Made by a program: the position numbers and the translations under genes. DNA of 61,411 bases from Kineococcus sp. TRM81007 (GTDB lineage: Bacteria; Actinomycetota; Actinomycetes; Actinomycetales; Kineococcaceae), in assembly GCF_022669155.1 (NCBI RefSeq), contig NZ_JALBVB010000034.1:131501-192911 (forward strand), given 5' to 3'. The notes below the pieces were generated by a model. That model made no database searches and was not told where the DNA came from. It saw only the letters and a list, made by a program, of their open reading frames with translations. Below, piece by piece: positions 24,947 through 45,765 of this stretch. Position 1 is the stretch's first letter; each line of letters starts with the position of its first letter.

Positions 24947-25026
24947 CCCGGCCCCGCAACCCCCGTCGTCACCCCCGCCGCTTCCCCGCTGCAGCCCCCG
25001 TCGTCACCACGAGAACGAGGCCCCGC

Positions 25027-26580: not shown

Positions 26581-28742
26581 ACGAGACCCGCTACCAGCGC
26601 GAGGTCCTCGTCGGCGCCGCGTACTACCACGAGTACCACCGCGCCGAGCAGCGCGACGCCGGACGACTGAAGACCGACATGGACCTCATGGCCGCGGCCG
26701 GGTTCAGCGTCGTCCGCGTCGGGGAGTCCGTGTGGTCGACGTGGGAACCGCGCGAAGGGGAGTTCGACCTCGACTGGCTCGAACCGGTCCTCGACGCCGC
26801 CCACGAACGCGGGATCTCCGCCGTCGTGGGAACCCCGACGTACGCGGTGCCGCCGTGGCTGCGGCGCACCTACCCGGAGACTGCGCTCGACGTCGCCACC
26901 GGGGTGACGATGCCCTACGGCCGCCGGCAGGACGTCGACCACTCCCACCCCACGTTCCGCCACCTCGCCGAACGTCTCGTGCGGGCCGTCGTCACCCGCT
27001 ACGCCGACCACCCCGCCGTCATCGGCTGGCAGGTCGACAACGAACCCGGCATCCACCTGCTGCACAACCACGGGGTGTTCCAGCGGTTCGTCGAGCACCT
27101 CAAGAGCGAGTACGGGACCGTCGAGGAGCTCAACGAGCGGTGGGGCCTCACCTACTGGTCGCACCGGCTCAGCGACTGGGCCGACCTGTGGGTCCCCGAG
27201 GGGAACACCACGCCGTCCTACCAGCTCGCCTGGCGGCGGTTCCAGGCCCAGCTCACCCACGAGCACATCGCCTGGCAGGCGGGCATCGTCCGATCCCTCG
27301 TCCCCGAGCACCAGTTCGTCACCACCTGCGTCGCGCTGAACCAGGACGGCCTCGACGTCGGGGAGGTCGGCCGGCCGCTCGACGTCGTCGGCACGAACGT
27401 CTACTACGGGACGCAGGACGACCTGGAGCTGCCCGGCAGCGACGACCCCGCGGGGACCACGACCCCGTTCTGGGTCCCGTGGGCGGGAACCGCCTACCTG
27501 CACCTGCAGGCCGACCTGTCCCGCGGCACCGCCCAGGCGCCGTTCCTCGTCACCGAGACGAACGCCACCTCCATCGGCGGCCCGGCGGAGAACCACCCCA
27601 GCTACGACGGGCAGTGGCGGCAGGTCATCTGGACGCTCGTCGCCCGCGGCGCCCGCATGGTCGAGTACTGGCACTGGCACTCCCTGCCCTACGGGGCGGA
27701 GACCGACTGGGGCGGTGTCCTCGGGCACAGCCTGCAACCCGGCCGCGCCTACGACGAGATCGCCGCCACCGCCCACGAACTCGCCGGCGTCACCGCCGAC
27801 CTGCACGGCCTGACCCCGCGCAGCGACGTGGGCCTGCTGCTGTCCGCGGAGTCGAAGTGGGCCATGCAGTTCTTCGGGCCGCTGCACGCCCCGGGGACCT
27901 GGCTGGGCGACACGGCGTCCTACGACCGCATCCTCGCCGCGTTCTACCGCGGGCTGTTCGACGCCGGCCTGTCCGTCGACGTCGTCCCCACCGGGCACCT
28001 GCCCCACGACCCCGAGGAGCTGCTGCGCCGCTGGCCCGTCCTCGTCGTCCCCGGCCTCCACGTCGCCTCCGACGAGCTGCTGGACCTGCTGCGGCGCTAC
28101 GTCGTCGCCGGAGGGCACCTCGTGCTGTCCCCGCGGTGCGGGGTCGCGGACACCGACGCCGTCGTGCGCCAGCTCGTCGCCCCCGGTGTGCTGCGTGAGG
28201 CGGTCGGCGCCCGCCAGCTCGAGCACAGCAACACCCGCACCGCCGTCCCGGTGACGGGACTGCCCGGCGCCGGTACCGGCTGGATCGACGGGCTGCTGCC
28301 CGAGGGGGCGGAGGTGCTCGCCGGGTACGACCACCCGCACTTCGGCCGGTTCGCCGCCGTGACGACCAACACCCACGGCGAGGGTCGCGCCACCTGGGTG
28401 GGCACCGTCCCCGACCGTGACCTCGGCCGGGCCGTCGGCCGGTTCGTCGCCCGGACGTCCGTGCCCGACGACCCGTGGCGCCACGCGCGGACCGAGACCA
28501 CCACCGTCGTCACCGCCGACACCGACACCGGTGCCCTGCGGTTCGTCCACCACTGGGCGTGGGGGAGCACGCGGTTCACCGTCCCCGAGGACTGCACCGA
28601 CGTGCTCGACGGGACCGAACTGCCCGCCGGTTCGACCCTGGACCTCGGGCCGTGGGACGTGCGGGTGCTCCGCGTCCCCACCACTCCCACCACTCCCAAC
28701 ACGACACCGACCACGACGACCGGTCAGGGAGGTCCCGCGTGA
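26577..28742 (+). CDS. GH42 beta-galactosidase
   Basis: The 721-residue enzyme of clan GH-A has a TIM barrel (about residues 10-390) with the acid/base Glu156 in QVDNEPGI and the nucleophile Glu327 in LVTETNA. Next come the class-I-glutamine-amidotransferase-like trimerisation domain (about 405-625) and a C-terminal beta domain. The zinc cysteines seen in some GH42 enzymes are not evident. It probably hydrolyses beta-galactosides, or alpha-L-arabinopyranosides as some GH42 enzymes do, from imported oligosaccharides. The GTG overlaps the preceding stop. The C-terminal tail is threonine/proline-rich. Confidence 0.9.
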   Translation: MNETRYQREVLVGAAYYHEYHRAEQRDAGRLKTDMDLMAAAGFSVVRVGESVWSTWEPREGEFDLDWLEPVLDAAHERGISAVVGTPTYAVPPWLRRTYPETALDVATGVTMPYGRRQDVDHSHPTFRHLAERLVRAVVTRYADHPAVIGWQVDNEPGIHLLHNHGVFQRFVEHLKSEYGTVEELNERWGLTYWSHRLSDWADLWVPEGNTTPSYQLAWRRFQAQLTHEHIAWQAGIVRSLVPEHQFVTTCVALNQDGLDVGEVGRPLDVVGTNVYYGTQDDLELPGSDDPAGTTTPFWVPWAGTAYLHLQADLSRGTAQAPFLVTETNATSIGGPAENHPSYDGQWRQVIWTLVARGARMVEYWHWHSLPYGAETDWGGVLGHSLQPGRAYDEIAATAHELAGVTADLHGLTPRSDVGLLLSAESKWAMQFFGPLHAPGTWLGDTASYDRILAAFYRGLFDAGLSVDVVPTGHLPHDPEELLRRWPVLVVPGLHVASDELLDLLRRYVVAGGHLVLSPRCGVADTDAVVRQLVAPGVLREAVGARQLEHSNTRTAVPVTGLPGAGTGWIDGLLPEGAEVLAGYDHPHFGRFAAVTTNTHGEGRATWVGTVPDRDLGRAVGRFVARTSVPDDPWRHARTETTTVVTADTDTGALRFVHHWAWGSTRFTVPEDCTDVLDGTELPAGSTLDLGPWDVRVLRVPTTPTTPNTTPTTTTGQGGPA

Positions 28743-29683
28743 CCTGGCGCGACAACCCACCGCGCGTGCGCGTCCTGAGCGACAACGACTACGCCGGCGA
28801 CCCCGACGGCCTGCTCCAGCTCGCCCACCACGCGCTGTCCCCGTCCGTCGACCTCGTCGGGGTGCTCTCCACCCACCTGCGTGAGGGCGACCCGTTCGAC
28901 CCGTCGGGGCGCTCCGCGCGCCACGGGGCGGTCGCCGCCCGTCACGTCCTGGCGTTGTGCGGACGTGACGACGTCCCCGTCGTCACCGGCAGCGAGACCG
29001 CCCTGCCGGACCGGTCGACGCCCGTGCGCTCCGCGGCCGCCGAGGCGATCGTCGCGGAGGCCATGCGCGAGGACACCGATCTGCCGCTGTTCCTCGCCTG
29101 CGGTGCCGGGCTCACCGAGGTGGCCAGCGCCTGGATGCTGGAGCCGCGCATCGCCGAACGGCTCACCGTCGTGTGGATCGGCGGTCCCGAGCACCCGGGT
29201 GTCCCCGCCCCGCCGCAGGCCGGGCCGTCGGAGTACAACCTGCGGATCGACGTCGCCGCAGCGCAGGTCGTGTTCGGCTCGGACCTGCCGTTGTGGCAGG
29301 TCCCGCGCGACGCGTACCGCCAGGTCCTCGCGGGGATGGCCGAGCTCGAGCAACGGCTGCTGCCTCACGGTGAGCTCGGTGCGCACCTGTACGGGCAGCT
29401 CGACGGGGTTCACGACCTCACCGCCGCGCACGGCCTCGCGTCGGGGGAGACGTACGTCCTCGGCGACAGCCCGCTCGTGCTGCTGACCGCGCTGCAGACC
29501 ACGTTCGAGGCTGACCCGGCGAGCAGCCGCTACCGCGTCCTGGCCCGTCCCGCCGTGGACGACGACGGGGAGTACGTGGCCGGGCCGGCGACCGGGGCGC
29601 CCGTTCGCGTGTACGAGCACCTCGATACCCGCCTGGTGCTGGAGGACCTGTACGCCAAGCTCGCCCGCCGCGGCGCAGGCTGA
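28739..29683 (+). CDS. Nucleoside hydrolase-like protein
   Basis: The 314-residue protein has an N-terminal aspartate cluster (LSDNDYAGDPDGLLQL: Asp15, Asp17, Asp21, Asp23). It matches the calcium-binding D-x-D-x-x-x-D-x motif of the nucleoside-hydrolase superfamily, though the last pair is D-P-D rather than D-D. The segment TVVWIGGPEHPG and the ASEYNLRIDVAAAQ-like region (EYNLRIDVAAAQVVF) also fit. The family cleaves N-glycosidic bonds of ribosides. In a glycosidase operon it could instead act on another glycoside. The GTG overlaps the GH42 stop; it is the last gene of the operon. Confidence 0.8.
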   Translation: MTWRDNPPRVRVLSDNDYAGDPDGLLQLAHHALSPSVDLVGVLSTHLREGDPFDPSGRSARHGAVAARHVLALCGRDDVPVVTGSETALPDRSTPVRSAAAEAIVAEAMREDTDLPLFLACGAGLTEVASAWMLEPRIAERLTVVWIGGPEHPGVPAPPQAGPSEYNLRIDVAAAQVVFGSDLPLWQVPRDAYRQVLAGMAELEQRLLPHGELGAHLYGQLDGVHDLTAAHGLASGETYVLGDSPLVLLTALQTTFEADPASSRYRVLARPAVDDDGEYVAGPATGAPVRVYEHLDTRLVLEDLYAKLARRGAG

Positions 29684-30974: not shown

Positions 30975-31913
30975 TCAGTAGCCGGCGCTGGGGTCGACGA
31001 CGCCGTCGAAGCGGCCGGTGATGCCGCCGGCCGCGAACACCGCGAGGTTGTGGGTGAGCACGTCCAGTCCTCGTCGACGGGTCGCGCGTGTCGTCGCTGC
31101 GTTGTGCGGTGTGACGACCACGTGTGGTTCGTGCCAGAAGGGGGAGTCCTGGGGCAGCGGCTCGGTGCTGTGGGCGTCGAGGCCGGCGCCGGCCAGCTGT
31201 CCCGACCGCAGGGCCCGCAGCAGGGCGCGGTCGTCGGCGATGCCGCCGCGTGAGACGCACACGTAGTACGGGTGCCGCTCGCACAGCGCGAACTCGGCGT
31301 CGCCGAGCATGCCGATGGTCTCACTGGTCGCAGGGGCCGTGACGGCGATCGCGTCGCTGGTGGTGAGCAGGGCCTCGAGCTCGGCGCGGTCGTGTCCGCG
31401 CCGGACCTGGAGGACGTCCATCCCGAACGCCGCGGCCCGGGTGGTCAGTTCGTGGCCGGCTCGGCCAGCCCCGATGATGCCCAGCCGGGCTCCGAGCAGC
31501 TCGCCGTGCTGGTAGCGGTCCCAGTGGCGTTCTCCTTGTGCCCGCTGCCACCGGGGAACGTCGCGCGTGAGCATGAGCAGCAGCAGCAGCACGTGTTCGG
31601 CCAGGGGTGCTGCACCGCTGCCCTTGGCTGCCGTGAGCAGAACGCGTCCGGAGGCGATCGGCTCCGGGAGCACTCCGTCGGCCGCGATGCCGTCGACGCC
31701 TGCGGCCCAGCTGTGCACCCAACGCAACCGGGGAGCTCTCGCGAGCTCGACCGCGTCTGGGGAGCCGACGAGTCCTTCGGCCACCGCCAGCAGGTCCGGG
31801 TCTGTTCCGGCACGCTCGGTGAACTCGAGCCGGACGCCTGGTGCTGCGTCGATGAGCTGCGCCCGTTCCTCGTGGGTGACGGCTCCGGTGACCAGGACGA
31901 GCGGGGCGCTCAA
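30975..31913 (-). CDS. D-2-hydroxyacid dehydrogenase (GhrA-like)
   Basis: The roughly 312-residue dehydrogenase has an NAD(P)-binding motif (LGIIGAGRAGHEL), the substrate arginine in CVSRGGIADD and the catalytic histidine in VVTPHNAATTR. Members of this branch reduce glyoxylate or hydroxypyruvate to glycolate or glycerate. A TTG start at 31913 is preferred: it overlaps the upstream stop (ATTGA), whereas the longer frame would intrude well into the upstream gene. It is the last gene of the leftward GHL6 operon. The usual catalytic glutamate is not obvious, as the corresponding region reads DAHSTEPLP. Confidence 0.82.
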   Translation of the reverse strand: MSAPLVLVTGAVTHEERAQLIDAAPGVRLEFTERAGTDPDLLAVAEGLVGSPDAVELARAPRLRWVHSWAAGVDGIAADGVLPEPIASGRVLLTAAKGSGAAPLAEHVLLLLLMLTRDVPRWQRAQGERHWDRYQHGELLGARLGIIGAGRAGHELTTRAAAFGMDVLQVRRGHDRAELEALLTTSDAIAVTAPATSETIGMLGDAEFALCERHPYYVCVSRGGIADDRALLRALRSGQLAGAGLDAHSTEPLPQDSPFWHEPHVVVTPHNAATTRATRRRGLDVLTHNLAVFAAGGITGRFDGVVDPSAGY

Positions 31914-32695
31914 TGCGCGGGCTCCGGGACGGCGGTGTACTGCCGCAGCCACGAGGTGCCCGCGCCGGTCGGCACGTACTCGGCACCGAAGAACCCGTCG
32001 TACCCGGCGGCTTTCAGCGCCGGCAGCAGGAAGGTGTAGTTCACCTCACCGGTGCCGGGCTCGTGACGGCCCGGGTTGTCGGCGACCTGCACGTGGCGGA
32101 TGCCTGTCCGGTACCGGTTGAAGGTGGTGAGCAGGTCCCCGTGCATCACCTGGGCGTGGTACACGTCGAACTGGAGCCCCGTGTTGGGTGCTGCCACGCG
32201 CGCGAGCAACGCCGCAGCGTCCGCGGTCGTCGGCAGGGCGAATCCTGGCACGTCACGGGTGTTGACCGCTTCCACCAGTACGGTGACGCCGAGGGGGGAC
32301 AGTGCTCGTGCGGCGAAATCCACGTTGCCCACCAGGGTGTCCAGTGCTCTGTCCACGTCGAGGTCGTCCGGTACCTTGCCCGCCAGGACGTTCACCAGCG
32401 GACACTGCAGGATCCGGGCGTGCTCGACCGCGTCCGCGACCCCTTCGCGGAACTCCTCGACCCTGTCCGGCAGGCAGGCGATCCCCCGTTCCCCGGCGGC
32501 CCAGTTCCCGGACGGGACGTTGAACAGCACCTGCTGCAGCCCGGCGGAAACAGTTGCCGCTCGCACCTCGTGGACGTCTTGATCGTAGGCTCCCAGGAAC
32601 TCGACGCCGGAGAACCCGTCAGCTGACGCGGCGGCGATGCGTTCGATGAGGGGGAGGTCCTGGTAGAGCATGGACAGGTTGGCGCTGAACTTCAC
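31910..32695 (-). CDS. Hydroxypyruvate isomerase-like TIM-barrel protein
   Basis: The 261-residue protein is of the Hyi/AP-endonuclease-2 TIM-barrel type. The N-terminus KFSANLSMLYQDLPLIERI matches hydroxypyruvate isomerases. Metal/catalytic residues lie in TVLVEAVNTRDVPGF (Glu), FDVYHAQVMHGDL (Asp, His), HVQVADNPGRHEPGTG and FFGAEYVP (Glu). Hydroxypyruvate isomerase interconverts hydroxypyruvate and tartronate semialdehyde; relatives epimerise keto sugars. The GTG overlaps the upstream stop and follows GGGAGGAG. The dehydrogenases in the same locus fit the hydroxypyruvate/tartronate branch. Confidence 0.87.
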   Translation of the reverse strand: MKFSANLSMLYQDLPLIERIAAASADGFSGVEFLGAYDQDVHEVRAATVSAGLQQVLFNVPSGNWAAGERGIACLPDRVEEFREGVADAVEHARILQCPLVNVLAGKVPDDLDVDRALDTLVGNVDFAARALSPLGVTVLVEAVNTRDVPGFALPTTADAAALLARVAAPNTGLQFDVYHAQVMHGDLLTTFNRYRTGIRHVQVADNPGRHEPGTGEVNYTFLLPALKAAGYDGFFGAEYVPTGAGTSWLRQYTAVPEPAH

Positions 32696-34845
32696 GACTC
32701 CTCCCGGGTGCTGGAGGGCGCGAAGGTCAGGTGGAGGACCTCGAGCAGGTCGATGGAGGGCACGATGACCTCCGCGGTGCCGCCGGTCACGTTGACGGCG
32801 ACTTCGCTGCCGTCCAGGGCGAGGAGCGCGGAGGTGACGTCTGCGCCGGCCGGGACGGGGACGGACACCGACACCGGCCCGCTCGGCAGGGTCCGTCGAA
32901 TGGCGCCTCGCATGGTCATGGGGTTGGTGAGGTTCACCAGGCACACCGCGACCTCGCTGGGCGTGCCGCCGCGCGGCGTCCGGTAGACGGAGACGTCGAC
33001 GATGCCGGGTGTGTCCACGTGCACACCGGTGTGCTCGCCCAGTGCCCACCGGACGGTGTCCGCGAGCAGCCGGCCGTGGTCGGGTTGCAGAGCCTCCCAG
33101 AAGACCGAGCCGAGGTTGAAGGCCACGTACGCGCTGCGGCCACCGCCTTCGTGCTCGCGCAGGACGACCGCGGGGTCGCGCGGCGCCTCGCGGGCGTAGA
33201 CCTCCTCCATGGGCAGGTCGGGGTAGTCGGGGACGAAGCGGAACGGCACGGTGGTGCCCTCCTCGGCCCGGACGGGGACGACCTGGGTGCCGCCGATGAT
33301 GCGCTGGGCACCGGCGAAGCCGGCGTGCAGGGGGTGCTGGCCGACGAGTGCGGCGTAGTTGTTGCGCACCCGATCGCGCACCTGCCCGGTGAGGTGCACG
33401 CCCAGCAGGTCGGCCAGGCCCAGGTCGTCTCTGCGAGCGCCGTCCTCGGTGAGCAGTGACGTCTCGCAAGCGGCGACCAGGGCGCCTCCGCGTGCCACCC
33501 ACTCGGTGATGGTGCGGCACTCCTGCTCGCTGAGTCGTTGCACGTTCGGGGCGACCAGGACGTGGAAGCGGTCCAGCTGCTCGGCGGTGATGAGACCGTC
33601 ACAGACGAACTCGAAGGGGATGCCGGCCTCGACGAGCGCCTGGTAGGCGCCCTGCCCGTCCTCTTGCTCCTTGCCGTGCGTGGGCAGCGGCGATGCCCGG
33701 GTGGCGTCCAGCAGGGCGACCTCGGCGGTGATCTCGAGCCGCGACAGGAGCGGTTCGAGGCGCGCGTGCAGCGTGAAGGCGTCGATGAGGGGCTCGACCC
33801 AGCGGGTGTCGAGGACCTCTGCTTTGAACTTGGTGAACCAGGGGAAGGCTCCTTGGGCGAAGCCGTCGACGATCCAGGTGGCGAACTCGGGCCCGCTGGT
33901 GACCGAGTCCTTCCAGCGGTGGGCGGGGTGCTCGGGGCCGATGCTCGTGATCAGCCCGACCGGGCGGTCCCGGAAGACGCTGCGGCTGCGCTTGCCGTTG
34001 CGGCCCGCTGCCCACGGCGCTTCGGTGCCCGAGCGGCCCTGCTTGTCGATGAAGAGCAGCGGGTAGTGCTTCTCCACCAGTCGGCGGTCGAGGTCGTGGG
34101 CGGCGACAGAGCCGAGGTTGGGGATGAACCGCACGTGCGGCTTGACCGCGCGCACGGCGTCGTCCCACAGTCCCACGAGGGTGCTGAGTCGTTGGCGTCG
34201 CCACGCGGGCCACGCACGCCATGCGGGGTCGTCGGGGTCGAACGCGCCGCGGGGCAGGTCCATGCCGGTGTCGTCGCGGAAGGCGCGGGCGGCGGCTCGC
34301 GAGTAGGAGATGCCGTGGCCTTGCCAGCGGTTGGCGAAGACGGCGTCGATCTCGTACTCGCGGGTGATCTCACGGGCCACGTCGGTGAGGAACTCGCTGT
34401 TGTAGGTGCCGAAGGGGCAGGTGACGTAGGTTCCGGGAAAGGCCCAGTGCTCGACCGGTGCGCCGTCCTCGTCAAGGGCCGCCCATTCGGGGTGCGCCGC
34501 GAGCGCGTCGGCGTGGATGGCGTGCGGGTCGATGCGGGCCATGACGGCCATGCCCATCTTCTTCGCCCCGTGCACCAGCGTGCCGAACAGGTCCCCGTCG
34601 CCGAGGTGCTTGCTGCGGTAGTGGAAGGGGATGCGCGTGGGGTAGAAGGCCATGTAGCCGCCTGCGGACAGGCACGTCGCGTTCGAGTGGCTGCGGCGCA
34701 TGACGTCGAGCCAGAAGTCGGGGTCGAAGTGCAGGGGGTCGTCCTCGGTGAAGGTCAGCTGCGTCCAGCGGTTGGCCCACGAGGGCCAGTCGCGGTCGGC
34801 GGGTGCTGCCGTGCTGCGCTCGGGTGCCGGATCGAGAGTGGTCAT
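32692..34845 (-). CDS. GHL6-like putative glycoside hydrolase with amidotransferase-like domain
   Basis: The 717-residue protein has an N-terminal TIM-barrel-like part (about residues 25-380). Segments typical of hypothetical glycosyl hydrolase family 6 are YMAFYPTRIPFHYRS, AVMARIDPHAIH, HPEWAALDEDG, CPFGTYNSEFL and EIDAVFANRWQGHG. A class-I-glutamine-amidotransferase/beta-galactosidase-trimerisation-like part follows (about 395-610), with VLVAPNVQRLSEQE and WVARGGALVAACETSL. A beta domain ends in VPSIDLLEVLHLTF. There is no signal peptide. It is a distant paralogue of the protein at 39918-41933. No member's substrate is known to me. Confidence 0.75.
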   Translation of the reverse strand: MTTLDPAPERSTAAPADRDWPSWANRWTQLTFTEDDPLHFDPDFWLDVMRRSHSNATCLSAGGYMAFYPTRIPFHYRSKHLGDGDLFGTLVHGAKKMGMAVMARIDPHAIHADALAAHPEWAALDEDGAPVEHWAFPGTYVTCPFGTYNSEFLTDVAREITREYEIDAVFANRWQGHGISYSRAAARAFRDDTGMDLPRGAFDPDDPAWRAWPAWRRQRLSTLVGLWDDAVRAVKPHVRFIPNLGSVAAHDLDRRLVEKHYPLLFIDKQGRSGTEAPWAAGRNGKRSRSVFRDRPVGLITSIGPEHPAHRWKDSVTSGPEFATWIVDGFAQGAFPWFTKFKAEVLDTRWVEPLIDAFTLHARLEPLLSRLEITAEVALLDATRASPLPTHGKEQEDGQGAYQALVEAGIPFEFVCDGLITAEQLDRFHVLVAPNVQRLSEQECRTITEWVARGGALVAACETSLLTEDGARRDDLGLADLLGVHLTGQVRDRVRNNYAALVGQHPLHAGFAGAQRIIGGTQVVPVRAEEGTTVPFRFVPDYPDLPMEEVYAREAPRDPAVVLREHEGGGRSAYVAFNLGSVFWEALQPDHGRLLADTVRWALGEHTGVHVDTPGIVDVSVYRTPRGGTPSEVAVCLVNLTNPMTMRGAIRRTLPSGPVSVSVPVPAGADVTSALLALDGSEVAVNVTGGTAEVIVPSIDLLEVLHLTFAPSSTREES

Positions 34846-34853
34846 GTGCGTCC

Positions 34854-35741
34854 TCACTTCAGGCCGGTGGTCGCGATGCCCCGGATGAGGTACTTCTGTG
34901 CGACGGCGAAGAACACGAGGATGGGAGCCAGGGAGAGCAGGGACATCGCGAACAGCGCGCCGACCCCGCTTTGCGTCTCCGCGTTGACCATGGTGTTCAG
35001 CGCGACGGGGACGGTGTAGACCTCGACGGACGTCAGGTAGATGAGCGGTGTGAAGAAGTCGTTCCAGGTCCAGATGAAGGTGAAGATCGTCGTGGTCACC
35101 AGGGCCGGCTTCATGAGCGGCAGGATCACGAACCAGAAGGTGCGGAAGGGGCCGGCGCCGTCGATGGCGGCGGCTTGGTCGAGCTCGCGGGGGATGGTGC
35201 GGATGAACTGGACCATCAAGAAGATGAAGAACGCATCCGTTGCCAGGAACTTGGGGATGAGCAGCGGGAAGTACGTGTTGAGCAGGTCCAGCTGCGAGAA
35301 GAAGATGTACTGCGGGACGACGAGGACGTGCATGGGCAGCATCACCGATGCGAGGGTGATCCCGAAGTAGATGCGTCGGCCGCGGAAGTCCAGCCGGGCC
35401 AGCGCGTAGGCGGCCAGCGAGCAGGAGAAGAGGTTGCCGACGATGGAGCCGACGGTGAGGAACAGGGAGTTGGCGAAGAAGAGCGAGAACGGCTCGCCGA
35501 GAGCGCCCCAGCCGTTGCGGTAGTTCTCGAGCGTCACCTCGCTGGGGATCAGTCCGGGCTGGGAGAGCACCAGGTTGCCGGGCTTGAAGGAGCTGACGAC
35601 CATCCACACCAGTGGGTAGACCATCAGGACGGCGAAGGCGATCAGGGCGATGTGCTTGCGCAGGTTCCCGGGGCGGGACGCGCGGGGTGCGCGGATGCTC
35701 GTCGTCTCGGTGGTCGGTGCCGTCGTCGTTGTCGTGGCCAC
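34854..35741 (-). CDS. Sugar ABC transporter permease, MalG type
   Basis: A 295-residue six-segment permease. The docking loop is ELDQAAAIDGAGPFRTFWFV (about residues 187-206), with Asp-Gln-Ala-Ala in place of the usual Glu-Ala-Ala. The C-terminus ends LIRGIATTGLK, as in MalG. The N-terminal 20 residues are threonine-rich and poorly conserved. It lies 8 bp upstream of the GHL6-like gene and 10 bp downstream of the partner permease. Confidence 0.92.
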   Translation of the reverse strand: MATTTTTAPTTETTSIRAPRASRPGNLRKHIALIAFAVLMVYPLVWMVVSSFKPGNLVLSQPGLIPSEVTLENYRNGWGALGEPFSLFFANSLFLTVGSIVGNLFSCSLAAYALARLDFRGRRIYFGITLASVMLPMHVLVVPQYIFFSQLDLLNTYFPLLIPKFLATDAFFIFLMVQFIRTIPRELDQAAAIDGAGPFRTFWFVILPLMKPALVTTTIFTFIWTWNDFFTPLIYLTSVEVYTVPVALNTMVNAETQSGVGALFAMSLLSLAPILVFFAVAQKYLIRGIATTGLK

Positions 35742-35751
35742 GTGTCCCTCC

Positions 35752-36717
35752 TCAGTTGTCGCCGTAGAAGACCCAGTACTTCGACAGCAGGAAGTGGATG
35801 GCCGTCACGATGCCGATCACGACGAGCAGTGCCCACGCCATCGCCGATGCGTAGCCCATGTTGAAGCTGACGAATCCTTGCTGGTACAGGTACAGCGTGT
35901 AGAACAGTGTCGAGTCGAGCGGCCCGCCGCGGCCACCGGAGATGATGTGGGCCTGGGTGAAGCTCTGGAAGGCGCCGATCGTCTGCAGGACGAGGTTGAA
36001 GAAGATGATCGGCGTCAGCATCGGCACGGTGATCGACAGGAACTGCCTCCACCGGCCGGCGCCGTCGACGCGCGCGGCTTCGTAGAGCTCTTCGGGGATC
36101 TGGCGCAATCCGGCCAGGAAGATGATCATCGGTGAGCCGAACGTCCAGACGTTGAGCACGACGAGCGTCGACAAGGCTGTGGAGGGGTTCTGCAGCCAGC
36201 TCTCGCCCTCGATGCCCAGCAGTGCCAGCCCGGAGTTGATCAGGCCGTCGTGACCGAAGAGCTGGCGCCACAGGATGGCGATCGCGACGGAGGCGCCGAG
36301 CAGCGAGGGGAGGTAGTAGACGCTGCGGTACAGAGCGAGTCCCTTGATGCCCCGGTCCAGCACGATGGCCAGTCCCAGGGCGAAGGCCAGCTGCAGCGGG
36401 ACCGAGACGAGGACGTACTTCAGGGTGACCCAGGCGGAGGCCCAGAAGCGGGGGTCCTCGCCCATGCGGCGGAAGTTCTCCAGGCCGGTCCAGGTCGGGG
36501 GGTCCAGCAGGTTGTAGTCGGTGAAGGCCAGGTAGAGCGAGGCGAGCAGCGGGACGGCCGTGATGAGCACGAGGCCGAGCAACCACGGGATGAGGAAGAC
36601 GTGCGCCGCGCGTCCCTGGCGCCGCCACTTCGGGGTGCGGCGGGTGGTGCGGTTGGCCGGCTCGGGGGGCGAGCTGCCCGACAGAGCAGGGCTCGGTGGT
36701 GCGGTGGGGGCGCTCAC
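35752..36717 (-). CDS. Sugar ABC transporter permease, MalF type
   Basis: A 321-residue permease with six membrane segments, starting FLIPWLLGLVLITAVPLLASLYLAF (given in part: LIPWLLGLVLI). The docking loop is EELYEAARVDGAGRWRQFLS (about residues 216-235). The GTG at 36717 overlaps the binding-protein stop (GTGA), so production of the binding protein and permease is coupled. As in the first sugar locus, no ATPase gene accompanies the system. Confidence 0.92.
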   Translation of the reverse strand: MSAPTAPPSPALSGSSPPEPANRTTRRTPKWRRQGRAAHVFLIPWLLGLVLITAVPLLASLYLAFTDYNLLDPPTWTGLENFRRMGEDPRFWASAWVTLKYVLVSVPLQLAFALGLAIVLDRGIKGLALYRSVYYLPSLLGASVAIAILWRQLFGHDGLINSGLALLGIEGESWLQNPSTALSTLVVLNVWTFGSPMIIFLAGLRQIPEELYEAARVDGAGRWRQFLSITVPMLTPIIFFNLVLQTIGAFQSFTQAHIISGGRGGPLDSTLFYTLYLYQQGFVSFNMGYASAMAWALLVVIGIVTAIHFLLSKYWVFYGDN

Positions 36718-38012
36718 CGTCGCGCCGCTTCGATCTCGCGGGTCACCTCGGCGGTGAACTGCGTCGCCGCCGTGGGGATGTCGACGTTGCCCAGCGCCAG
36801 CGCTTCGATGGTGCGGGCCATGACATCGCGCCACGTGCCGGATCCGGGCGGGGCCTCGTAGCGGGGGCGCTGCTCGTGCTGCATCTCCTCATCGACCAGG
36901 TCGAGCAGCTTCAGCTCGTCCGCCGTGGCGTCGGGGCGGATCTCCTCGAGGACGCGGGGGTTGGCGGGAGCACCCACGGTGAGCCCTGTCTGGGCGACCA
37001 TGCGCGCGTCGTTGAGGTTGAAGTCGAGCAGCTTGGCGGCGCCCTCCAGACTGCCGTCGGGGGTTTCCCGGTACATCGCGATGCGGCTGAGGTAGCCGAA
37101 CCGGAAGCCGGGTGTGGCGTCGGGGTTCGCGGGGGTCATGCGCTGCTGGAAGTCGTAGTCGGGGAACTGCTGGGCCTCGTCGACGATGTGGTTGGAGTTC
37201 TGCAGGGTCATGAGGACCTTCTCGCCGACGACCGGCCACTCCGGGTCGGCGCCTTCCTGTTCCGAGAGCTCCAGGGCGGCGCCGGCGGTACGCAGTCGCT
37301 CCCACCACTCGAACCAGCCCTCGAGGGCGGCCGGGTCCGCGCCCAGCGTGCCGTCCTCGGTCCACAGGTCGCTGCCGTGCTGGCGCAGCCAGGACTCGAA
37401 GACCATGTCGCTGTTGGCGCAGTACGCAGCGCCCTTGCGGCCTTGCGGGTTGTCGGCCGAGTAGTCGATGAGGAACTCCGCCAGGGAGTCCCAGGTCCAG
37501 TTGGCCTCGTCGTAGGCCGGGAGCTCGGCGCCGGCCTCCTCGAGGAAGGTCTGGTTCCAGCGCACGCAGGGCGTGAAGATCGAGCGCGGCATCGTGTTGA
37601 GCTCACCGTTGAGCTTGAAGGTCTCGAGCAGGTCGTCGGGGTAGTCGGACAGGTCGAAGCCGTCGAGGTCGTCGAGCGGGCGGTACAGGTTCGCCGCCTG
37701 GTACGTGAGCACCTGGGGTGAGGGGATCCAGAAGAGCTCCGGGACGTTGCGGCCGGCCATCTGCACGGTGATGCGTTCCTGGAACGCGCCGTAGTCCGCG
37801 AACTCGGGACGCACGGTGACGTCGGGGTTCTCCTCGGAGAAGATCGCCAGTGCGGCTTCGTAGTTCTGCTTGCGCACGGCGTCGCCCCACCAGGCGTAGC
37901 GCACCGCGCCCTCGGTGGAGCCGCTCGCGCTGCGGCCGCAGGCGGCCAGGGGGGCGGCGGCCGCGGTCACGGCGCCGGCGCCGATCAAGCGGGTGAAGGT
38001 CCGTCGGTCCAT
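36714..38012 (-). CDS. Sugar ABC transporter substrate-binding lipoprotein
   Basis: A 432-residue MalE-type binding protein with a Tat-like N-terminus (MDRRTFTRLIGAG) and lipobox LAAC. Typical family segments are AIFSEENPDVTVRPEF and VPELFWIPSPQVLTYQAA. The ATG at 38012 is chosen because GGGAGA lies 6-10 bp upstream; an ATG 18 bp earlier is possible. It is the first gene of the leftward GHL6 operon, divergent from a GntR regulator with an operator pair in between. The ligand is unknown and may be an oligosaccharide or glycoconjugate. Confidence 0.9.
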   Translation of the reverse strand: MDRRTFTRLIGAGAVTAAAAPLAACGRSASGSTEGAVRYAWWGDAVRKQNYEAALAIFSEENPDVTVRPEFADYGAFQERITVQMAGRNVPELFWIPSPQVLTYQAANLYRPLDDLDGFDLSDYPDDLLETFKLNGELNTMPRSIFTPCVRWNQTFLEEAGAELPAYDEANWTWDSLAEFLIDYSADNPQGRKGAAYCANSDMVFESWLRQHGSDLWTEDGTLGADPAALEGWFEWWERLRTAGAALELSEQEGADPEWPVVGEKVLMTLQNSNHIVDEAQQFPDYDFQQRMTPANPDATPGFRFGYLSRIAMYRETPDGSLEGAAKLLDFNLNDARMVAQTGLTVGAPANPRVLEEIRPDATADELKLLDLVDEEMQHEQRPRYEAPPGSGTWRDVMARTIEALALGNVDIPTAATQFTAEVTREIEAARR

Positions 38013-38117
38013 CGGGGTCTCCCTGTACATCGCCGTCGATGTGGTGCCGGGTGTCCATGTGGTGCCGGGTGCTCGAGCGGAGGGGGCTTGAGTGACTCGA
38101 CCGTAGGACGCCGCATC

Positions 38118-38146
38118 TTGTCGGTCAAGACTGATTGTTAGACAAT
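38118..38146. promoter_or_regulatory. Tandem GntR-type operators
   Basis: Two related 11-mers 17 bp apart, TTGTCGGTCAA (38118-38128) and TTGTTAGACAA (38135-38145). The second extends to the perfect inverted repeat ATTGT-TAG-ACAAT. They fit the T-n-G-T-n3-A-C-n-A pattern of FadR-type GntR regulators. They lie in the 155-bp region between the divergent binding-protein and GntR genes, so one regulator could control both arms. Confidence 0.75.
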
Positions 38147-38167
38147 TTGCTGCGCTAGCATCGCGCC

Positions 38168-38911
38168 ATGACTGTTGCGCCTGTGGGCTCCCAAGCACCG
38201 CGGTTCGTGCTGGCGCCGTCCTCGGTGGTGGACGCGCTCTACGACGCGGTGCGGCACCGCATCGTCAACGGTGAGCTCGTCGGCGGGGAGAAGCTCACCG
38301 AAGCCCGCCTGACCGGTGAGTACGGCGTGGCGCGCACCACCGCCAAGGCGTGCCTGGAGCGCCTCACGACAGCGGGGTTGCTGCGAAGGACGGCCCACCG
38401 CACGGCCGTGGTGACCGAACTGGGAGCGGCGGAGGTCAGCGACCTGTACTTCGCCCGACTCGCGGTGGAAGGCGCCGCAGTGCGGCGCCTGGCCGAGCGC
38501 CGGGACCTGCCGGCGACGGCCACGGCGGCACAGGCGCAGGTCGTCTCAGCGGTCGATGCCCACGACTTCCGCAGGCAGGCGGAGGCGGACATGGCCTTCC
38601 ACGCCGCCCTCGTCAACGGTGCCGGCAGTGAGCGACTCTCCCGCATGCACGGCTTGATCATGGGGGAGGTCCACCTCACGATGGGACAGTCGCGTGCGCA
38701 CCTCGTCCCCGGGCGCAGCGCAGTGGGTGACGAGCACGACGCGATCCTGGCCGCGGTGCTCGCCGGGGACGCCGCAGGCGCCGTCGCGGCGCTCGAGACG
38801 CACCTGGCCCACGCGCAATCCCGCGTGCAGGCCAGGCTCGCCCGCGCGGCAGCGCAACAGGACGCGCAGCAGGAGGCACAGCAGCAAGCAGACCCGGGCG
38901 CCGCGAACTGA
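38168..38911 (+). CDS. GntR-family (FCD-type) transcriptional regulator
   Basis: A 247-residue FadR/FCD-type regulator. The N-terminal winged helix (ALYDAVRHRIVNGELVGGEK, then EARLTGEYGVARTTAKACLERL) is followed by an all-helical ligand domain (about residues 95-225). That domain contains the usual metal-ligand residues: Asp in DMAFHAALVNG with His, and His in the C-terminal VAALETHLAHA. FCD regulators usually respond to small organic acids. The tail is glutamine/alanine-rich. Its position between the two GHL6 operons marks it as their regulator. Confidence 0.92.
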   Translation: MTVAPVGSQAPRFVLAPSSVVDALYDAVRHRIVNGELVGGEKLTEARLTGEYGVARTTAKACLERLTTAGLLRRTAHRTAVVTELGAAEVSDLYFARLAVEGAAVRRLAERRDLPATATAAQAQVVSAVDAHDFRRQAEADMAFHAALVNGAGSERLSRMHGLIMGEVHLTMGQSRAHLVPGRSAVGDEHDAILAAVLAGDAAGAVAALETHLAHAQSRVQARLARAAAQQDAQQEAQQQADPGAAN

Positions 38912-39027
38912 CCGCGGCACGCCTGAGCCCAGCACCAGCACCGCACGCACGGGCGCGCCGCGGTCCACCGCAGTGAGCCCACACGCACCACCCGAGCACT
39001 CCCGAGCGAGCACGAAGGAGCAAGGAC

Positions 39028-39921
39028 ATGCGCGTAGGCTTCATCGGAGCAGGGATCATGGGCAGGCCGATGATCGACAACCTCGTCGCGAAGGGGCACG
39101 AGGTCCGCTGCTACGCCCGCTCGGACGCCTCCCGCGAGCGGGCCCGCAGCACCGGTGCTGAGGTCACCGCCAGTGTGGCGGCCGCGTGCAAGGACGCCGA
39201 GGTGGTCGTGACGATGCTGCCCGCCGGCCCTGACGTCCTCGACGTCGTCACCGGCGAGGACGGAGCCCTGCAGGCCATGGCGACCGGCTCGATCCTGCTG
39301 GAGCAGTCGACGATCAGCCCGGACGAGGCCCGAGCGGTGCACGAGGCCGCCCAGGCGGCCGGCATCCGCTGTCTCGACGCCCCGGTCAGCGGCGGCGAGG
39401 CGGGCGCCGTCGAAGGAACCCTGGCCGTCATGGTGGGAGGCGACACCGACGTGCTCGACGACGTCCGCCCCGTCCTCGACGCAGTCGCCACCACCGTGGT
39501 CCACGTCGGCGGGCCGGGCGCCGGCCAGGTCGTCAAGGCCGCCAACCAGCTCGTCGTCGCCGGCAACCTGCAGGTCCTGGCCGAGGCGATGGTCTTCCTG
39601 CGCGCGCACCTCGCCGACGACGACCTGCCCGCCGCGCTCGACGTGATCGGCGCCGGACTGGCCGGCAGCACCGCGCTGAACCGCAAACGCCAGGCACTGC
39701 TGACCCGCGAGCACCCAGCCGGCTTCCGCGTCGCCCTGCACGACAAGGACATGGGGATCATCACCACCGCCGCCCGGCAGGCCGGCCTCGCGCTCCCCGC
39801 CACCGCGGTCGTCAGCTCGATGCTCGCCGCCCTCAAGGCCCGCGGCGGCGCGGACCTGGACCACTCGGCGCTCGCCCAGCTCGCGGCCGAGCTCAACGGC
39901 GACCCGGGGAGGGCCCGGTGA
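39028..39921 (+). CDS. 3-hydroxyisobutyrate / tartronate semialdehyde reductase-family dehydrogenase
   Basis: A 297-residue beta-hydroxyacid dehydrogenase. It has a dinucleotide-binding N-terminus (VGFIGAGIMGRPMIDNL), the substrate motif DAPVSGGEAGA (about residues 115-125) and the catalytic lysine in GQVVKAANQ. GarR/GlxR members reduce tartronate semialdehyde to D-glycerate; others oxidise 3-hydroxyisobutyrate. With an Hyi-like isomerase in the divergent operon, tartronate semialdehyde reduction is the better guess. The ATG follows AAGGAG. The stop overlaps the GTG of the second GHL6-like gene. Confidence 0.87.
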   Translation: MRVGFIGAGIMGRPMIDNLVAKGHEVRCYARSDASRERARSTGAEVTASVAAACKDAEVVVTMLPAGPDVLDVVTGEDGALQAMATGSILLEQSTISPDEARAVHEAAQAAGIRCLDAPVSGGEAGAVEGTLAVMVGGDTDVLDDVRPVLDAVATTVVHVGGPGAGQVVKAANQLVVAGNLQVLAEAMVFLRAHLADDDLPAALDVIGAGLAGSTALNRKRQALLTREHPAGFRVALHDKDMGIITTAARQAGLALPATAVVSSMLAALKARGGADLDHSALAQLAAELNGDPGRAR

Positions 39922-41933
39922 CCACCGTCGAGGAGACCACCTCGTCCTCGGTGGTCGCCGAGGACGAGCTGTGGTGGCGTTCGCCGTTCCGGATGTACCA
40001 GACGAACCTGCGTGAGATCGACGTCGACCTCGACGTCGACGCCGTGCTCGAGCACATCGTCGACTTCGGTGCGAACGCGTGGCTGCTCAACGTCGGCGGC
40101 ATCATCTCGAACTACCCGACGCGCCTGCCGTTCCAGACGCCCAACCCCGTGCTCGCTGCCCGCCCCTCCGGTGACCTGCTGGGCGATGCCGTCACCGCAG
40201 CGCACGCCCGTGGTGTGCGCGTCATGGCCCGGATGGACTTCTCCAAGGTCGCCCGGCCGATCGCCGAGGCGCACCCGGACTGGCTCTACGTGGGCCCGGA
40301 CGGGCGACGCCAGGAGGTCCACGGGTTGACGAGCGTCTGCCCGAGCGGCGCCTACTACCAACAGCACCTCACCGAGGTCCTCGAGGAGGTGCTCGCGCAC
40401 GCGCCGGTCGACGGGTTCTTCATCAACTGGATGAGCTTCGGTGAGGTCGACTACGCCAAGCAGTACCGGGGGGTGTGCCAGTGCATGGCCTGCCGGCGCG
40501 GTTTCACCCTCGCCCACCCGGACCTGTCCTTGCCCGTTGACCGGGAATCGGCGTCGTACCCGGCGTGGCGCCGCTGGTCCGCCGCCGTCATCGACGACCT
40601 GCTGGCCCGGGCCCGTGCCGTCATCGCAGCTCACCGACCGGAAGCGCCGCTGGTCATGGGCAACACCGCCGACATCGTCTTCCACGAGGCCAACAACGCC
40701 GTCGGCAGACCCATGTGGCACCACCAGACCTCCGAGAGCGTCTCCGCCGCGAAGGCCTACCGACCGCACGTGCCGGTCCTGGTGAACTCGGTCGCCTTCT
40801 ACGACATGCCCTACCGGCTGGTCGCCGAAGAACCACACGTCCTGGCCCAGTACCAGCTGCAGGCCATCGCACGCGGCGCGAACCCGTCCACGTACGTCAT
40901 GGGCTGTCCAGGGCGGCTGGACTACGCCAGCGTGCCCGCGGCCTCGCGGATCGTGCGCTTCCACCGCGACCACGCCCACGTCTACGACCGACTGGTGCCC
41001 TCGGCGCGCACGGCCATCGTGCGGCCCGACCCGTTGGCGGTGCCCGAGGACGGCACCGATCCCGTCGAGGAGTTCCGCGGTCTGTACGACTCGCTCCTGC
41101 AGCGGCACATCCCCTTCGACGTGCTCCCCGCCCAGCACCTCGGCGATCTCGGCTCGTCCCTGCAGCGGTACGCGCTGCTCGTCCTGGGTGACCTCGGAGC
41201 GCTCTCGACGGACGCGGTGGGCGTGTTGGAGCACTTCACGAGCTCCGGGGGCCGCCTGCTCCTGACGGGGTCGACAGCCTTCGCAGCGGACACCTCGCAG
41301 CTGACCGCAGCCGGTGTCGTTCGCCGCACGGCGGTGCTGGCCGGCGCTGAGGCGACCTGGTCGTCCGTCGTCGTGCCCGACGGCGGTGCACCCGTTCCGG
41401 TCCTGGGGGCGTTCCACGTCCTCGAAGCGGCCGCACACGCCTCGACGACCCACCGTGTGCTCTCCCGCGCTCCGTACGGCCCGCCCGAGAAGTGCTACGG
41501 GCACCTGGACCTCGACATGCCCGCCACCATCCGCTCGGACGCGGTGACGACGTTGCCGATGACACCGGGGCGGGCGTACCGCACGAGCGGCCTGTCGACG
41601 CTGCGGGACCTCGTGGCCGACGAGGCCTTGCGTCTGCTGGGCGCAGACGTCGAGGTCACCACGGACCTCCCCGAGCAGGTCGAGGTCGTCGTCGGGTCCT
41701 CACGGGCCGGCAGCGTCGTCCACCTGCGCAACCTGACGGGTGCCACCCACCAGTCCTTCCACGCGCCGCTACCGGTCACGGACCGCACCATCGCGTACGC
41801 GGGATGGCACGTGGGCCGACGCGTGCAGGCCCTGGTCGCCGGTACCGAGCTCATCGCCGAGCCGGCACCGGGCGGGGGTGCCCAGGTCCGCCTGCCCGAC
41901 GTGAACCTGTTCGAGGTGCTCACCGGAGCCTGA
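39918..41933 (+). CDS. GHL6-like putative glycoside hydrolase with amidotransferase-like domain
   Basis: The 671-residue protein has a TIM-barrel-like part (about residues 20-370) with family segments NAWLLNVGGIISNYPTRLPF, VRVMARMDFSKV, HPDWLYVGPDGR and VDGFFINWMSFG. A cysteine cluster, CQCMACRR (about residue 193), may bind metal. The amidotransferase-like part follows (about 385-560), and the C-terminal beta domain ends in LPDVNLFEVLTGA. The architecture matches the protein at 32692-34845, but the sequence is clearly divergent. No signal peptide is visible. The GTG overlaps the preceding stop, so it is coupled to the dehydrogenase. Confidence 0.77.
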   Translation: MTTVEETTSSSVVAEDELWWRSPFRMYQTNLREIDVDLDVDAVLEHIVDFGANAWLLNVGGIISNYPTRLPFQTPNPVLAARPSGDLLGDAVTAAHARGVRVMARMDFSKVARPIAEAHPDWLYVGPDGRRQEVHGLTSVCPSGAYYQQHLTEVLEEVLAHAPVDGFFINWMSFGEVDYAKQYRGVCQCMACRRGFTLAHPDLSLPVDRESASYPAWRRWSAAVIDDLLARARAVIAAHRPEAPLVMGNTADIVFHEANNAVGRPMWHHQTSESVSAAKAYRPHVPVLVNSVAFYDMPYRLVAEEPHVLAQYQLQAIARGANPSTYVMGCPGRLDYASVPAASRIVRFHRDHAHVYDRLVPSARTAIVRPDPLAVPEDGTDPVEEFRGLYDSLLQRHIPFDVLPAQHLGDLGSSLQRYALLVLGDLGALSTDAVGVLEHFTSSGGRLLLTGSTAFAADTSQLTAAGVVRRTAVLAGAEATWSSVVVPDGGAPVPVLGAFHVLEAAAHASTTHRVLSRAPYGPPEKCYGHLDLDMPATIRSDAVTTLPMTPGRAYRTSGLSTLRDLVADEALRLLGADVEVTTDLPEQVEVVVGSSRAGSVVHLRNLTGATHQSFHAPLPVTDRTIAYAGWHVGRRVQALVAGTELIAEPAPGGGAQVRLPDVNLFEVLTGA

Positions 41934-45121: not shown

Positions 45122-45160
45122 GGCGGGTCTTCGGATCTGCGGGTGGGTAGCTCACCCTGA

Positions 45161-45190
45161 CCGGCGCCGGCGCCGGCGCCGGCGCCGGCA
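45161..45190. repeat. Hexanucleotide repeat (CCGGCG)n
   Basis: Four exact copies of CCGGCG and a fifth ending in A. It is 13 bp beyond the end of the ISL3 transposase fragment. Confidence 0.85.
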
Positions 45191-45202
45191 CCGTCGCCGT
45201 CG

Positions 45203-45370
45203 CCAGGGCCGGGTGCCATCGGCGGCGAGCAGGATGTGGATGCGGTAGTTACCGAAGTTTCGGAACCCGTGCGCCAGGCGGCGTGCCTTCTCGATGATGA
45301 GGACGATGGCCTCGGTGCCGCCGTTGCTGATCCCGCCGGTGTCGAAGTAGTCCATCACCTCCGCCCGCCA
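45203..45370 (-). pseudogene. ISL3-family transposase, C-terminal fragment
   Basis: The frame reads WRAEVMDYFDTGGISNGGTEAI, in parts MDYFDTGGISNGGTEA and IIEKARRLAHGFRNFGNYR. This is the strongly conserved end of ISL3 transposases (usually F-x-T-G-x-S-N-G-x-T-E followed by K-R-x-A-x-G-F-R-N-F). The first 300-odd residues are missing: upstream the sequence becomes an MFS transporter fragment within a few bases. Downstream it dissolves into a CCGGCG repeat. Confidence 0.8.
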
Positions 45371-45765
45371 CGTCGTAGCGACGGGCGCCTTCGGCGCGGC
45401 TCTCACGCAGGGTGGGGAGGGCAACCAGCAGGGTCGCGACGGCGATGGGCACGTTGATGAGCAAGCACCAGCGCCAACTGACGTACTCGGTCAGCAGCCC
45501 GCCGAGGACGAGCCCGATGGCGCCACCGGCCCCTTGGACCGCGTCGTAGACGCCGAACGCGCGGGCCATCTCGCGCGGGTCGGTGAAGGTGGTGGTGATC
45601 AGCGACAGGGCGGCCGGGGCCAGGACTGCGGCGAAGACCCCTGCAGCGCGCGGGCGCAGAAGAGCATGACGTCGGTGGTGGCCGCGCCGCCGATCGCCGA
45701 GACGAGGGCGAATCCGATCAGGGCGATGAGGAAGGCGCGTTTGCGGCCGACGAAGTCGCCCCCCC
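45366..45765 (-). pseudogene. MFS drug-efflux-type transporter, internal fragment
   Basis: Two frames together encode the middle of a 14-segment MFS transporter: FVGRKRAFLIALIGFALVSA and MLFCARALQG in one, VFAAVLAPAALSLITTTF and WRWCLLINVPIAVATLLV in the next. Joining them needs one extra G in the run at about 45638-45641. The N-terminus is cut where a CACCTG repeat begins. The C-terminal half is replaced by the ISL3 fragment, so it is non-functional even if the frameshift is a sequencing error. Confidence 0.8.

Follow-up and report, generated by a model that had tools for sequence, protein, structure and literature searches.

Sugar ABC operons under GntR control are known in actinomycetes, and the locus described here, nine genes at 30975–41933 of a 61,411-base stretch of Kineococcus sp. 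TRM81007 DNA (the window), belongs to this already known kind, a GntR-controlled operon of ABC transporter and glycosidase-like genes. Beside importer and regulator, it encodes two proteins with a GHL6 domain and three small enzymes, and two further described systems bear on these. In the gcl cluster of P. aeruginosa, GlxR alone converts tartronate semialdehyde to D-glycerate, the role of Hyi is debated and the tautomerization assigned to Hyi can be spontaneous, according to the cited sections of the report (PMC12694930). On the glycosidase side, the passages cited describe Mfuc3 as a soil-metagenome α-L-fucosidase with a GHL6 domain (PMC4723247) and place it in family GH151, whose catalytic residues are Asp154 on strand 4 (nucleophile) and Glu235 on strand 6 (acid/base) (PMC10154630). 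The preliminary description of this DNA, which had regarded GHL6 proteins as lacking any biochemical function, has to be amended on this point.

Our favored reading, to which we give slightly under an even chance, is that the two arms, under GntR control, serve the catabolism of an imported glycoside of a C3 hydroxyacid (perhaps C2 in the second type of locus described below), which ends as glycerate. In the pathway suggested by the gene families, an ABC system with the binding protein SBP (36714–38012) and the permeases PER1 (35752–36717) and PER2 (34854–35741) would take up a small carboxylated glycoside, which the two GHL6 proteins, GHA (32692–34845) and GHB (39918–41933), would cleave in the cytoplasm. 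GHB would cut the bond that the loci have in common, and GHA would cut another, found mostly in type I. The C3 unit would be freed at the level of hydroxypyruvate, tartronate semialdehyde or glycerate, and the isomerase-like HYI (31910–32695), the reductase-like GARR (39028–39921) and the dehydrogenase DH (30975–31952, starting at 31952 or 31913) would channel it to D-glycerate. The single glycerate kinase of this genome, encoded on another contig, would then phosphorylate the D-glycerate, and the sugar part would pass to general metabolism. A common hexose is a possible sugar part, since no recurrent sugar-specific enzyme was seen in type I loci except L145, with most neighboring genes unannotated.

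The nine-gene set is a real unit: the conservation that the preliminary description had proposed as a check is found both in co-occurrence across genomes of the order and in the relative loci. Among 396 genomes of the order, with E values of 1e-40 or better for a GHB relative and 1e-60 for a GHA relative, GHB occurs in 22 and GHA in 15, and every genome with GHA also has GHB (hypergeometric 3e-22). The set is an accessory trait, as only two of the 11 genomes searched in the window's own genus have it. We mapped the nine window proteins onto 29 fetched loci, 27 of them with GHB, and found the set recurring in rearranged gene orders. A second sample came from a scan of named genomes with alignment A1, in which the GHB sequence alone found no relative and the A1 profile recovered them; 80 of 101 loci were kept, from 41 genera or metagenome-assembled-genome (MAG) groups. 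They are mostly from Actinomycetota, with others from Pseudomonadota (Inquilinus, Devosia), Chloroflexota and Thermomicrobiota. Genes were predicted with a home-made caller and grouped into BLAST clusters, and loci cut by contig ends and near-copies are kept in the counts. DH accompanies GHB in 67 of the 80 loci, GARR in 61, each permease in 54, GHA in 39, SBP in 36, and HYI and GNTR, the regulator (38168–38911), in 32 each; counted by the 41 genera or MAG groups, the numbers are 37, 31, 28, 18, 16, 14 (HYI) and 16 (GNTR). The next most frequent clusters are, by eye, transporter and LacI-type regulator families (n5, n11, n10, n12, n13), followed by glycerate kinase. GHL6 itself is rare: of 296 genomes sampled from the phylum, 8 have a match above the cut-off, among them that of the window, in which GHA and GHB are the sole matches to the domain (E 0.001).

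Most of the 80 loci fall into two types. Type II comprises the 21 loci with an Opp-type cluster, n10 (SBP_bac_5) or n11, and type I the 51 other loci with PER1; eight belong to neither. DH, GARR, GHA, GNTR and HYI occur in 45, 41, 35, 31 and 30 of the type I loci and in 19, 18, 2, 1 and 1 of the type II loci. A quick 71-row tree groups the type II GHBs, with 3 label changes against 13.8 for shuffled labels, and carries long-branch warnings. Type II neighbors above NCBI cut-offs are β-glucuronidase (7 loci, two of them locus-end fragments), glucuronate isomerase (3), D-mannonate dehydratase (ManD; 4), a glucuronide symporter (2) and malate synthase G (5); below cut-off are a GlcD-like oxidase (4), a fructuronate-reductase-like protein (4) and a lactonase-like hydrolase (8). 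The exceptions in type I are L145, which also carries clusters for the isomerase, the dehydratase and the reductase-like protein, and L126, which has a GH2 protein. In both locus types a glycoside-active set sits alongside enzymes of C2/C3 hydroxyacids, and the type II additions count in favor of a substrate in which a sugar is linked to such an acid.

Two results have strengthened the C3-acid reading since it was put forward in the preliminary description. Glycerate kinase is present in 9 of the 80 loci (5 of type I, 4 of type II) from 7 genera, where about 0.5 would be expected at two copies per 6 Mb; the member tested exceeds the TIGR00045 cut-off, and four of the nine are shorter than 270 residues, partly through locus-end cuts. 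The other result is that no Gcl above cut-off was found in the window's own genome (best 394 bits against 711), and the allantoin/glyoxylate route was set aside for this genome. Hence HYI and GARR do not serve the usual form of that route here, and, should tartronate semialdehyde or hydroxypyruvate be the substrates, these must have another origin, the imported compound being the simplest one. Among the 22 GHB genomes, 15 have no Gcl above cut-off and 7 have one, compared with 65 of the 374 other genomes (Fisher p 0.09), which is not a clean exclusion of the glyoxylate route outside our genome.

A number of observations weigh against this reading. GARR is absent from 19 and DH from 13 of the 80 loci, some of them cut by contig ends, and HYI is absent from 21 of the 51 type I and 20 of the 21 type II loci. 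Glycerate kinase is missing from the window locus and from 71 of the 80 fetched loci. The glucuronate and glycolate genes lie mainly in loci with the other transporter class, which may mean a different substrate; the presence of glucuronate genes in L145, a type I locus, makes a plain hexose uncertain for that type, and every neighbor cluster name rests on a single member tested with hidden Markov models (HMMs). HYI scores 309.7 bits on TIGR03234, below the equivalog cut-off of 353.45, and GARR 301.5 bits on TIGR01505, below 340.75. Finally, the second-best solved relative of HYI is YgbM, which we take to be a 2-oxo-tetronate isomerase.

HYI is a TIM barrel of the hydroxypyruvate/2-oxo-tetronate isomerase type, so that the earlier label "Hyi-like" stands as far as the hydroxypyruvate isomerase model goes and falls short in that the 2-oxo-tetronate isomerase model (NF043033) fits almost as well, at 291.2 bits and likewise under its equivalog cut-off of 325. 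All 17 HYI relatives match TIGR03234 at E 1e-10, and the same 17 also match the 2-oxo-tetronate model; Glu142, Asp177, Gln203 and Glu239, presumably the metal ligands, are invariant in the 17 rows of alignment A3. GARR, a β-hydroxyacid dehydrogenase, fits the tartronate semialdehyde reductase model far better than that of L-threonate dehydrogenase (137 bits), its 17 relatives all match TIGR01505 (best E 4e-117), and Lys170 is invariant in the 17 rows of alignment A4. DH is a D-2-hydroxyacid dehydrogenase (PF02826, 3.5e-42) in which Arg235, Glu264 and His283, presumably the catalytic triad of the family, are retained in 93% or more of 66 rows. It had been called GhrA-like, a name that we drop, as GhrB (99.6 bits) scores above GhrA (75.8) and a general D-2-hydroxyacid dehydrogenase best (148.2), all far under cut-off.

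The assignment of both larger proteins to GHL6 holds (PF14871, 56.1 bits for GHA and 96.1 for GHB; gathering score 35). A single-sequence phmmer search of the Protein Data Bank (PDB) gave nothing below E 0.39 for either protein. In a profile search (hmmsearch), the GH151 α-L-fucosidase 6tvk came out on top for both GHB (2.1e-20) and GHA (5.2e-25). AlphaFold models of the two (mean pLDDT, the predicted local distance difference test, 89.7 for GHA and 93.9 for GHB) also gave 6tvk at Foldseek rank 1, with 2.9e-38 and template modeling (TM) scores of 0.76/0.82 for GHA and 1.3e-36 and 0.76/0.77 for GHB. Both models thus have the GH151 fold and the domain architecture of 6tvk (ALfuk2), a TIM barrel, a middle domain and a C-terminal β domain, and share the GHL6 domain with Mfuc3, whereas identity in the structural alignment is only 18%. 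After GH151, their next structural kin is GH42 β-galactosidase, with which they share the middle domain PF08532 (GHA 32.1 bits, GHB 24.2 bits, cut-off 25.8); the GH42 catalytic domain PF02449 found no match at E 0.01 in either. GHB has Cys141, Cys187, Cys189 and Cys192, the last three kept in 26 of 27 rows, and the arrangement of Cys141 with Cys187-x-Cys189-x-x-Cys192 resembles what we take to be the GH42 zinc site. No export signal was seen by eye in GHA or GHB.

The two proteins differ from GH151 in the active site. At the Asp154 position, read from alignments to 6tvk and GH151-like proteins, GHB has Asn170 and GHA Asn172; from the lengths of 689 and 660, Asp154 would correspond to chain residue 183 of 6tvk. 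Asn is found there in 108 of 108 GHB and 58 of 58 GHA rows, near-copies included. Because the GHB rows of the 80-locus scan were partly picked by the pattern FxNW, the fairer counts are those of rows not picked by motif, 27 of 27 and 19 of 19. Asp occupies the position in the GH151-like protein L164 of the phylum sample (3.2e-95 to 6tvk), in L163 and L165 of the same genus and, by eye, in a further GHL6 protein, L167. The preliminary description had allowed that the pair might be a characterized CAZy family, and the absence of the GH151 nucleophile from both speaks against that. Judged by these alignments, GHA and GHB cannot use the GH151 nucleophile. Clan GH-A presumably has Asn-Glu where GHB has Asn170-Trp171 and GHA Asn172-Arg173. 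Both share, unlike GH151, an Arg-x-Asp at the end of strand 3 that is invariant in the 27 GHB and 19 GHA rows (the acids being Asp107 in GHB and Asp106 in GHA). On strand 6, Glu257 of GHB and Asp267 of GHA, an Asp rather than the Glu of GH151, are invariant in the same rows; in the models Glu257 lies inside strand 253–258 and Asp267 just past strand 264–266, and hhalign placed the Glu235 counterpart uncleanly. These invariant acids at strands 3 and 6 would be the best catalytic candidates, and GHA and GHB may work by a mechanism not yet described.

The relative loci hold further GHL6 proteins and neighbors. A third GHL6 subtype (cluster c36) occurs in L068, L070 and L072; the last two have GHB, malate synthase G and an HbpS/GlcG-like gene close to it, and L070 has a GlcD-like oxidase there as well. 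Three loci with GHB-type GHL6 (L127, L139 and L067) contain a ThuA-family gene, identified by HMM, and a Gfo/Idh-like gene, identified by eye, and GHA-type GHL6 proteins are found in L067 and L075, both loci with ThuA-family and Gfo/Idh-like genes. Such genes recall 3-keto-sugar routes. Cluster n71 (L140, L143, L146) is an 883-residue protein (L146:12266–14914) with no Pfam match at 1e-5 that adjoins GHB in Arthrobacter and Modestobacter.

These data can be read in other ways. HYI could be a true 2-oxo-tetronate isomerase, GARR a dehydrogenase of the threonate/erythronate type and the non-sugar part a C4 acid, which we consider unlikely. The close scores of HYI on the two models (310 and 291 bits), matched by all of its relatives, and the rank of YgbM among its two best solved relatives would suit such a scheme, but GARR with its 301.5 against 137 bits does not, nor does the recurrence of glycerate kinase; no kinase or aldolase of the pathway (presumably OtnK and OtnC) was identified, though most neighboring genes are unannotated. 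Unlikely, too, is a modified-sugar route in which HYI would be a sugar epimerase and the substrate of DH and GARR a sugar acid formed from the glycoside, with no C3 acid freed. The barrel of HYI is shared with ketose 3-epimerases and a 3-keto-glucoside 4-epimerase, and the ThuA-family and Gfo/Idh-like genes of three GHB loci fit this idea. However, HYI fits the hydroxypyruvate and 2-oxo-tetronate isomerase models at least 70 orders of magnitude, and their solved relatives at least 40, ahead of any epimerase, and a modified sugar would leave glycerate kinase, GlcD and malate synthase G unexplained. That GHA and GHB are simply diverged GH151-type α-L-fucosidases with the small enzymes as passengers is highly improbable: the top solved match by both profile and fold and the common domain order argue for it, but Asn replaces the nucleophile in all 27 and 19 rows where 6tvk and three GH151-like proteins of one genus have Asp, no other genes accompany GHB as constantly as DH and GARR, and no gene of fucose catabolism was identified, though here again most neighbors are unannotated.

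Two variants arise from a redundancy: a simple descent to glycerate would not call for a semialdehyde reductase, an isomerase and, in addition, another dehydrogenase. As a special case of the C3-acid scheme, the set could invert L-glycerate, GARR oxidizing it to tartronate semialdehyde, HYI converting this to hydroxypyruvate and DH reducing the latter to D-glycerate, with no net redox change. We judge this inversion to be unlikely as well. It would account for all three enzymes together without Gcl, where the known gcl cluster, in the sections cited, needs a single reductase from the semialdehyde to D-glycerate (PMC12694930); the 21 type I loci without HYI tell against it, though less so if the tautomerization is spontaneous, as the same sections allow (PMC12694930). 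In the other variant, which we hold to be very unlikely, oxidation would come before cleavage: GARR would act on the still uncleaved glycoside (a 2-O-glycosyl-glycerate, say), oxidizing its hydroxyl β to the carboxylate, the strand-6 acid of GHB would expel the enediol, and HYI and DH would restore D-glycerate, again with no net redox change. GHA and GHB would then found two glycosidase families without the GH151 nucleophile, and the scheme would correspond, on the aglycone side, to the known oxidation-assisted glycosidases.

For the favored reading, that of an imported glycoside of a C3 hydroxyacid, the binding protein gives some indication of the ligand. SBP (PF13416, 4.2e-22) has a twin-arginine-like lipoprotein signal by eye, and its closest solved relative is YesO (phmmer 5z6b, 2e-18), followed by further sugar-binding proteins including 2uvg/2uvh (3.4e-10); we take YesO and 2uvg/2uvh to be binders of acidic pectin fragments. 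Nine Arg and seven Trp are kept in at least 95% of 37 rows of SBP relatives. A glycoside of a glyceric-type acid would be the favored ligand. We presume that candidate substrates include compatible-solute glycosides, glyceryl-bearing gellan and ascorbate glycosides, among which the data do not separate.

The preliminary description had placed the nine genes around the operator pair of an FCD-type GntR regulator, and all nine are present and complete there, with the families it had given. SBP through to DH form the minus-strand arm, and GNTR, GARR and GHB the plus-strand arm. Its claim of tight gene overlaps is likewise correct, with 4-base overlaps at three junctions (32692–32695, 36714–36717 and 39918–39921); the DH/HYI overlap is 4 bases (31910–31913) with the DH start at 31913 and 43 bases with the start at 31952, and short gaps of 8 bases (GHA/permease) and 10 bases (permease/permease) separate the others. 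PER2 is nearest to GlcU/UgpE/MalG (PF00528, 4.7e-19) and PER1 to UgpA/MalF (PF00528, 1.2e-13), with all NCBIfam matches below cut-off, and SBP with two MalF/MalG-type permeases corresponds to a CUT1-type ABC importer, whose ATPase we assume to be shared and encoded elsewhere. GNTR has both its GntR (PF00392, 41.8 bits) and FCD (PF07729, 72.2 bits) domains above cut-off, and a small acid is its likely effector. Promoter and terminator scans returned 0 sites.

Of the two proposed operators between the arms, the second is well supported and the first is backed by fewer recurrences. The second repeat, TTGTTAGACAA (38135–38145), is the single occurrence of the pattern TTGTN3ACAA in the window. In the 80 loci this pattern has 35 sites in 174,918 intergenic bp and 8 in 1,389,848 genic bp; 32 of the 35 intergenic sites lie upstream of a gene of the set; these are spread over 24 loci, and GNTR is present in 22 of them. 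This distribution supports a common operator motif that would serve the set across species and promoters. The first, operator-like repeat, TCTTG-TCGGT-CAAGA (38116–38130), is the only TCTTG-N5-CAAGA of the window, and the pattern occurs twice in the 80 loci (L087, L108) and once in 29 other loci (L062). Since all three of these matches are intergenic and beside set genes, with none genic, an operator pair is likely.

To the left of the locus, at 22170–29683 on the plus strand, lies an oddly mixed unit of transport and hydrolase genes. It includes a fusion of an OppC-type permease with an ABC ATPase (626 residues), whose OppC_N/permease and ATPase domains lie within a single open frame (22170–24050), a second ATPase-like frame, and proteins resembling GH43 β-xylosidase, GH42 β-galactosidase and inosine-uridine nucleoside hydrolase. 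These genes look like a separate unit, as only one of the 29 fetched loci has a relative of the GH42 protein (L073, 27%) and none has a relative of the nucleoside-hydrolase-like protein. Cluster n5 proteins of the relative loci have 570–640 residues, a length compatible with the same OppC/ATPase fusion. Elsewhere in the window, 52974–53804 encodes a protein of the aminoglycoside 3-N-acetyltransferase family (PF02522, 257 bits), a family assignment only, and a short frame at 45152–45406 resembles, by eye, an insertion-sequence transposase remnant.

The locus gives a rare glycosidase-like domain a defined metabolic setting and provides two protein families, open to testing, whose active site is altered. 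If the favored reading is correct, it shows a use of glyceric-type acid glycosides by soil bacteria and warns against labeling such proteins β-galactosidase or fucosidase; if the GARR-first chemistry were true, it would be a new way of opening a glycosidic bond. No description of the enzyme set, the operator or the altered GHL6 pair was found among the matches listed in open-licence PubMed Central (PMC) papers.

Compared with the known systems, the locus shares with the gcl-hyi-glxR-glxK cluster of E. coli and P. aeruginosa (PA1498–PA1502), as far as the cited sections describe it (PMC12694930), Hyi-like and tartronate semialdehyde reductase-like enzymes and, in some relatives of the window locus, glycerate kinase. 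It differs by its pair of glycosidase-like proteins, its sugar-type ABC transporter and its additional dehydrogenase, in a genome without Gcl over cut-off. With the GntR-controlled sugar ABC operons of actinomycetes it has in common the regulator, the divergent promoter, and a binding protein with two permeases and no ATPase gene in the locus; the difference lies in its enzyme content.

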